Shown piece after piece: positions 60,468 through 62,130 of a stretch of 64,000 nt of DNA. Every line of letters starts with the position of its first letter. Positions within the stretch are counted from its first letter, which is position 1. Source of the DNA: Chloroflexota bacterium (GTDB lineage Bacteria > Chloroflexota > Limnocylindria > P2-11E); assembly GCA_021787445.1 (NCBI GenBank), contig JAJYLV010000002.1, forward strand, positions 37,930 through 101,929, in the 5' to 3' direction. Made by a program: the position numbers and the translations under genes. The notes under the pieces were generated by a model that was not told the DNA's origin, searched no databases, and saw only the letters and a list, made by a program, of their open reading frames with translations.

Positions 60468-61235
60468 ATGCAGTCGCGGTCCGCGGCCTCGCCGCCCGAG
60501 TCCGACCTCGCCGAGGCGGTCCGCCGCGTCGAAGAGGAGAAGGAGGAGTTCCTCTCCATCGTCGCGCACGAGCTGAAGACGCCGCTCACCCCGCTCAAGA
60601 GCGTGGCTCAGCTCCTTCGCCTGCGGCTCGCGCGCGCACGTCGCGGCGAGCGCGAGCTGGACCTCGATTCGCTGGAGACGAACCTCGCGACGATCGAGCG
60701 CCAGGTGGACCGGATGGACCGCCTCGTCACCGACCTGCTCGAGGTCTCGCGCATCGGGCGCGACCGGCTCGAGCTGATCCTCGAACGCGTCGACATCGCC
60801 TCGCTCGTCCGCGACGTCGTCCAGAGGTGGACCGAGGCCACGGCGGAGGAGGGGCGTCACCGCCTCGAGCTCGAGGCGCCGCCGAGCCTCGAGGTGACGG
60901 CGGACCGGCAGCGCGTCGACCAGATCCTCGTGAACCTCGTCGGGAACGCGGTGAAGTACTCGCCACACGGCGGCGCCGTGCACCTCCGTCTCGAAGAACG
61001 ACCCGGCGAGGTGGTCTTCACCGTCCGCGACGGCGGCATCGGCCTCGCGGAGGACGAGATCGCTCTTGTCGGCCGCGAGCCCTTCGTCCGGGGGCGCCGT
61101 GCGCACGGGTTCGCCGGCGTCGGTGTCGGCCTGTACCTGTCGCGGCTCGTCGCCGAGCGCCACGGCGGTCGCGTCGAGATCGAGAGCGAGGGCGAGGACA
61201 AGGGGACGACGGCGCGGTTGATCCTGCCGCGCTAG
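60468..61235 (+). CDS. Sensor histidine kinase without input domain
   Basis: The 255-residue protein from ATG 60468 has HisKA (EEEKEEFLSIVAHELKTPLTPLKSVAQLL, phospho-His near 34) and HATPase_c (VDQILVNLVGNAVKYSPHGG, FTVRDGGIGLAEDE, GFAGVGVGLYLSRLVAERHGG). No membrane segment, PAS or other sensing domain precedes the HisKA helix, so it is a soluble minimal kinase that probably gets its signal from another protein. No response regulator is adjacent. CATGCT six bases before the start suggests leaderless transcription. The 3' end nearly touches a convergent tRNA gene. Confidence 0.9.
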   Translation: MQSRSAASPPESDLAEAVRRVEEEKEEFLSIVAHELKTPLTPLKSVAQLLRLRLARARRGERELDLDSLETNLATIERQVDRMDRLVTDLLEVSRIGRDRLELILERVDIASLVRDVVQRWTEATAEEGRHRLELEAPPSLEVTADRQRVDQILVNLVGNAVKYSPHGGAVHLRLEERPGEVVFTVRDGGIGLAEDEIALVGREPFVRGRRAHGFAGVGVGLYLSRLVAERHGGRVEIESEGEDKGTTARLILPR

Positions 61236-61239
61236 CGGG

Positions 61240-61323
61240 TGCCGGAGGAGGGACTCGAACCCTCACGGGCTTGCGCCCACGGGTGTTTGGGACCCGATCG
61301 GCTACCGATTTCGACACTCCGGC
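61240..61323 (-). tRNA. tRNA-Leu (anticodon CAA)
   Basis: On the minus strand the sequence folds into a class II tRNA: acceptor GCCGGAG/CTCCGGC, D arm TCG/CGA, anticodon arm CGGGT-CCCAAAC-ACCCG, long variable arm GGGC-GCAA-GCCC, T arm GAGGG-TTCGAGT-CCCTC, and discriminator A. The loop gives anticodon CAA (codon UUG). Position 33, almost always U, is C. No CCA is encoded. The 3' end lies five bases from the stop of the convergent histidine kinase gene. Confidence 0.93.
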
Positions 61324-61344: not shown

Positions 61345-62130
61345 TCAGCGCGCCGGTAGCACCTCCACGACGGCGCCGCGCTTCACGTTCAGCCGGTCGA
61401 TCGCGCGCGCGCCACGCATCGCGAGCTCGAGGTGGCCCGAGCTGTTGATGACCGCGACGAGCTCGTCCGCGTCGGCCTCGGCGTAGAAAGAGACGAGCCG
61501 TCCGACGACGACGCTGCCCACCCCGACGGTCACGGAGCCACGCGGCACGAGCTCCTTGCCGATGTCGGTGACGACGTTGCCGAAGCGGTCGACGTGCACG
61601 ACGTGACCCGCCGCCGATCCGTCAGGGCGGCGCTGCGGCGGACGGATGGGGTAGGGGACGATCGAGTCGATCGCGTCGCCGACCTCGCGCAGTGCGGCGC
61701 CGGTCGCGAGGCGCGCCGCGATCGGCGCGAAGATGTCGCGTCCGTGGAACGTCGGACTGACGGGGTGGCGCCACAGCGCGCGGACCGTCAGCTCCACCGC
61801 CTCGCCGTCGGTCGATCCGCGCGCTACGAGCTCGAGGGTCCCGTTGTCGGGACCGACGCCCCGGCGGCCGTGCGCCTGGATCGCGATGCCTCTCCGCTCC
61901 GACCCGACGCCGGGGTCGACGACGCACACGACGACGCTTCCTTCGGGGAGGTCGCGCCACGCGGCGTTCAGGACCCACCCCGCTTCCGTGATGTCGCCGG
62001 GCGCGATCTCGTGCGAGATGTCGATGAGCTGGACGTCCGGCACGGCCTTCAGGAGGACGCCCTTCATCGACGACACGTAGTGATCGCGCGTCCCGAAGTC
62101 TGTCAGCAGCCCGACCACCTGGCGGCTCAC
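61345..62130 (-). CDS. S-adenosyl-L-methionine hydrolase (adenosine-forming), DUF62
   Basis: The 261-residue protein from GTG 62130 has the SAM hydrolase/chlorinase-fluorinase family pattern: GLLTDFGTRDHYVSSMKGV, DISHEIAPGDITEAGWVL, VVVCVVDPGVGSERRGIA, GPDNGTLELV and HGRDIFAPIAARLA in the N-domain, and HVDRFGNVVTDI with a beta-barrel C-domain. The Asp-Arg-His set needed for hydrolysis appears present, as in hydrolytic members rather than halogenases. It splits SAM to adenosine and methionine. The GTG overlaps the monophosphatase stop (GTGA). Confidence 0.9.
   Translation of the reverse strand: MSRQVVGLLTDFGTRDHYVSSMKGVLLKAVPDVQLIDISHEIAPGDITEAGWVLNAAWRDLPEGSVVVCVVDPGVGSERRGIAIQAHGRRGVGPDNGTLELVARGSTDGEAVELTVRALWRHPVSPTFHGRDIFAPIAARLATGAALREVGDAIDSIVPYPIRPPQRRPDGSAAGHVVHVDRFGNVVTDIGKELVPRGSVTVGVGSVVVGRLVSFYAEADADELVAVINSSGHLELAMRGARAIDRLNVKRGAVVEVLPAR

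Follow-up and report, generated by a model that had tools for sequence, protein, structure and literature searches.

The stretch of 64,000 nucleotides analysed here, referred to as the window, carried a tRNA-Leu(CAA) gene with C instead of U at position 33. U33 gives the anticodon loop its U-turn. With a probability of roughly two in three, the gene encodes a tRNA-Leu(CAA) that is functional and vertically inherited and whose U33 was recently replaced by C33, in a lineage that tolerates C33. The overall pattern looks like a lineage-wide relaxation, or an editing, of a base that has been called universally conserved (PMC8891652), rather than like one defective tRNA.

The gene, which is of class II with a long variable arm, was located at 61240..61323 on the minus strand. 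ARAGORN reported a tRNA-Leu(CAA) at 61238-61323 (minus strand) with the anticodon at position 35, and Rfam RF00005 matched 61240-61323 (minus strand) with 43.9 bits against a gathering score of 29. An RF00005 search of the whole window with fast filters missed the gene. In the Rfam alignment, the anticodon stem-loop CGGGU CCCAAAC ACCCG occupied 61280..61296 on the minus strand, the anticodon CAA, which reads UUG, was placed at 61287..61289 (minus strand), and position 33 was a C at 61290 (minus strand; G on the plus strand). The stem CGGGU/ACCCG was fully paired and forced the 7-nt loop CCCAAAC, composed of C32, C33, C34-A35-A36, A37, and C38, which confirmed the C33 reported in the initial annotation. 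The discriminator base was A73, at 61240, and the CCA end was not encoded. The minimum free energy was -40.5 kcal/mol (z = -3.65 against shuffles), and the energy fold kept the acceptor, anticodon, variable, and T arms, while the D arm came only from the Rfam alignment.

The leucine identity nucleotides A73, A14, A15-U48, G18G19, and A20a (set from PMC9976931) were all retained. The tRNA thus combined a tRNA-scoring cloverleaf, the CAA anticodon, the leucine identity nucleotides, and a codon that stands for leucine; U33, a general tRNA feature that is not specific to Leu(CAA), was lacking. It was alike to bacterial tRNA-Leu(CAA) in the anticodon, the class II variable arm, and these identity nucleotides, but differed in having C33 instead of U33 and C38 instead of A38, C38 being common in U33 orthologues of Leu(CAA) throughout the class. 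The C33 form is a variant of the tRNA-Leu(CAA) family, because C33 tRNAs work elsewhere and here occur in tRNAs that look indispensable. The source assembly (2.51 Mb, 185 contigs, 95% complete, ~71% GC), which contained 38 tRNAs by RF00005, showed none of the marks of a pseudogene, namely disrupted stems, missing conserved bases, or another intact copy. A normal second tRNA-Leu(CAA) gene, which according to the initial annotation would make this one a pseudogene, was not found by a search with the tRNA itself in this 95%-complete assembly, and a copy in the missing 5% is possible.

In the relatives, C33 was found in none of the 18 other Leu(CAA) tRNAs of the family. A Leu(CAA)-C33 pattern matched only the genome of the window among 177 class genomes and 400 phylum genomes, and the U33 version matched 46 of those 177; the pattern detects GCCGGRG acceptor stems only. 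The orthologue in the same genus (genome G001) had the loop CUCAAAA with U33, and another family member (G017) had an identical anticodon stem-loop except for U33. Because the C33 pattern occurred in this genome only and the orthologues had U33, the change in Leu(CAA) appears to be recent and private to this genome.

The locus itself was conserved. A histidine kinase gene (HisKA and HATPase_c domains) was located at 60468..61235 on the plus strand, and a homologue of it adjoined Leu(CAA) in nine relatives. On the opposite flank of the tRNA gene, a SAM hydroxide adenosyltransferase gene (SAM_HAT_N/C) was located at 61348..62130 on the minus strand, with a homologue adjoining the Leu(CAA) tRNA in G001 and G002. 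The flanking proteins in G001 were 80% (histidine kinase) and 90% (adenosyltransferase) identical to those of the window. Since the neighbours were conserved beside Leu(CAA) in the relatives, the gene in the window is the inherited copy; a mobile tRNA, or one gained by horizontal transfer, was rejected on the basis of this synteny.

The initial annotation had implied that C33 was peculiar to this tRNA. When every anticodon loop in the genome was parsed, C33 was found in 5 of the 38 tRNAs, the other four being Leu(UAG) (L033), Leu(GAG) (L038), Gly(UCC) (L029), and Arg(UCU) (L023), which ruled out uniqueness. Two relatives with complete tRNA sets had C33 in 4 of 40 (G001) and 3 of 40 tRNAs (G019), and the family DNA analysed (family f1) had it in 16 of 190, a sample weighted toward leucine tRNAs. 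The departures from U33 in the family were always to C, never to A or G. With the genome of the window denoted G000, C33 was present in Leu(GAG) of four of six genomes (G000, G001, G004, and G019, with U33 in G002 and G011), in 4 of 19 Leu(UAG) (G000, G006, G008, and G022), in 2 of 22 Leu(UAA) (G001 and G019), in 1 of 19 Leu(CAA), in all three Gly(UCC), and in 2 of 3 Arg(UCU) (G000 and G001). Because C33 was scattered over genera, the sequences imply that U33 probably changed to C33 several times independently. Outside the family, C33 was found in 0 of 37 tRNAs, in a small and mostly leucine sample. A phylum-wide Leu(GAG) pattern allowing either base gave U33 in all matches listed, as judged by eye, and none of those came from this class.

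In the three complete tRNA sets, C33 was associated with U34 (8/31 versus 4/87, p = 0.002), the genomes being related and thus not independent. GC pressure alone was rejected as the cause of C33, with 0 of 14 tRNAs affected in G011 at 72.6% GC and the 3 of 40 in G019 at 66% GC. The loss of MiaA was likewise rejected as a cause of relaxed loops, as 26 of 28 genomes, that of the window among them, had miaA. G37 followed A36 in many of the family's tRNAs for UUR leucine codons (e.g. L042, L053, and L069), with loops such as CUUAAGA and CUCAAGA; the usual base there is A37 with i6A, and miaA is nonetheless present.

Codons were counted in 116 homology-supported ORFs (51,195 codons from a 460 kb sample). 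UUG was rare, at 1.37 per 1000 codons (70/51,195), as the initial annotation had expected, and UUA occurred at 0.10 per 1000 (5/51,195). Three of the five UUA-containing ORFs lay on one 20 kb stretch (L118, G000:C60:80001-100000). The commonest leucine codon was CUC, at 60.2 per 1000, and Leu(GAG), with C33, was the only tRNA found able to read it. Gly(UCC), also with C33, was the only tRNA found in this genome for GGA and GGG, which together made up 35 per 1000. Because C33 occurred in the sole tRNAs found for CUC and for GGA/GGG, it cannot be taken in this lineage as a plain sign of weak decoding or of a regulatory role. The initial interpretation was upheld for C33, for the lack of a second Leu(CAA) gene among the tRNAs found, and for the rarity of UUG, and was not supported where it took C33 as the mark of a poor, specialised, or regulatory tRNA. 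A compensation by modification, which it also proposed, or by editing may nevertheless occur.

The UUG codons stand for leucine. Positions with UUG aligned to leucine of G011 in 30 of 40 cases, compared with 1590 of 2218 for CUC (p = 0.73), and to leucine of G032 in 9 of 12 cases, which ruled out a reassignment of UUG. The genome had one strong leuS match. A second, divergent leucyl-tRNA synthetase was rejected, the further matches being weak and below the cut-off.

In the proposed mechanism, position 33 of tRNA-Leu(CAA) would have recently changed from U to C, and the tRNA would be expressed, receive leucine from the ordinary leucyl-tRNA synthetase, and be used to read UUG as leucine, with C33 still a C in the mature RNA. 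The C33 would be tolerated in Leu(CAA) because the family tolerates C33 generally, the same change having presumably arisen in several tRNAs. The constraint would be weaker still for UUG, because the codon is rare and Leu(UAA), which has U33 in this genome, can probably also read UUG by wobble. G001 showed the opposite arrangement, Leu(CAA) having U33 and Leu(UAA) having C33, which fits a relaxed constraint on both UUR tRNAs. Several points argue against this account. Leu(CAA) with C33 was seen in a single genome, whose assembly is fragmented into 185 contigs, which would allow a base error or strain variant at this position; in yeast systems, U33C is reported to degrade decoding by a tRNA (PMC3664417) and to abolish the Elongator-dependent modification of U34 (PMC11096365).

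It is improbable, though worth weighing, that an encoded C33 is converted to U33 in the transcript by deamination, which would leave the mature tRNAs normal, as in the C8-to-U8 editing of Methanopyrus kandleri by CDAT8. Editing predicts departures from U33 to C and never to A or G, as observed, and C33 was present in tRNAs that carry much of the decoding. In M. kandleri, a lineage whose genes depart many times from a universal U, this signature is explained by CDAT8 (PMC11802342, PMC6382703), and a genomic C at the universally U position was likewise found here in several tRNAs. The two cases share a gene-level C in place of a universally conserved U in several tRNAs of one lineage (PMC11802342), but the position is 8 there and 33 here, where the editing and its enzyme are hypothetical. 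However, only transitions may be tolerable even without editing, and about 10% of the tRNAs, not most, had C33. One ordinary-looking cytidine-deaminase motif (L131) and no tRNA deaminase were found in the 18% of the genome that was screened. Editing at position 33 is unreported in the accessible part of the literature on tRNA editing. Tolerance was placed well ahead of editing because C33 concerned only a minority of tRNAs and that 18% of the genome showed no candidate enzyme. It is improbable that an unrecognised tRNA deaminase converts C33 to U33 in several tRNAs of the family, at an editing site that would be new to the same part of the literature.

A decay of tRNA-Leu(CAA) toward a pseudogene, with UUG rare and readable by Leu(UAA), would agree with the UUG frequency of 1.37 per 1000 codons, with the presence of a Leu(UAA) with U33, and with the restriction of C33 in Leu(CAA) to this genome. 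In addition, TrmL needs an A36A37A38 motif (PMC9976931), which C38 breaks. However, C38 was common in U33 orthologues across the class, and C33 was also present in tRNAs that cannot be dispensable. Because the stems and leucine identity nucleotides were intact and the locus was syntenic in relatives, pseudogene status appears unlikely.

It is very unlikely that the C at the single base 61290 is an error of sequencing or assembly or comes from a minor strain. The fragmented assembly and the occurrence of Leu(CAA)-C33 in a single genome would allow it, but C33 was present at other tRNAs, several of them common to independently assembled genomes (Leu(GAG) in G000, G001, G004, and G019; Arg(UCU) in G000 and G001), and the base was not at the contig edge but about 2.7 kb inward from it. 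A tRNA dedicated to regulation, like bldA (UUA) of Streptomyces, would suit the rarity of UUG and the still greater rarity of UUA (5/51,195 codons), but is hardly credible with UUG at ordinary leucine positions (30/40 aligned to leucine) and C33 not specific to rare-codon tRNAs.

Natural C33 tRNAs are known from other systems. The eukaryotic initiator tRNA-Met has a natural C33 in a working tRNA (PMC9023262), but it is an initiator and one tRNA per genome, whereas a set of elongator tRNAs was affected here. The tRNA-Cys(GCA) of the Sulfolobales has a clade-specific C33 in an elongator tRNA (PMC7668247), but it is archaeal and one isoacceptor was reported, whereas several isoacceptors for three amino acids were found here in a bacterium. 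About 8 to 13% of the tRNAs of the present family were encoded with C33, including the sole tRNA found for CUC, the most-used leucine codon. The family offers a natural experiment on two alternatives, namely that efficient elongation does or does not require U33, and that editing restores it.

The leucine tRNAs of the family also varied in the length of the variable arm. The Leu(UAA) of the genome of the window was 74 nt long and had no long variable arm (L069, G000:C73:1147-1220, minus strand). Such class I Leu(UAA) tRNAs, of 74-79 nt, were found in 17 genomes of the family, and short class I Leu(CAA) tRNAs were found in G005, G010, and G028 (L069, L070-L082, and L094-L113 for the two kinds together). 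By pattern search, short-arm leucine tRNAs occurred within the class only in this family and its sister family, and A14, A15-U48, G18G19, A20a, and A73 were retained in nearly all of them. A search of the literature on leucine tRNAs with a short variable arm in bacteria, and on tRNA-ReL, gave nothing useful. The short-arm leucine tRNAs of this bacterial order contrast with the statement of a recent review that leucine tRNAs without the long arm occur only in animal mitochondria. Variants of E. coli tRNA-Leu without the long arm can still be leucylated (PMC9976931). In G020, one tRNA-Leu(UAA) of class I and one of class II lay about 0.8 kb apart (L303, G020:C221:20000-21200), and this pair is possibly an intermediate in the replacement of one Leu(UAA) class by the other.
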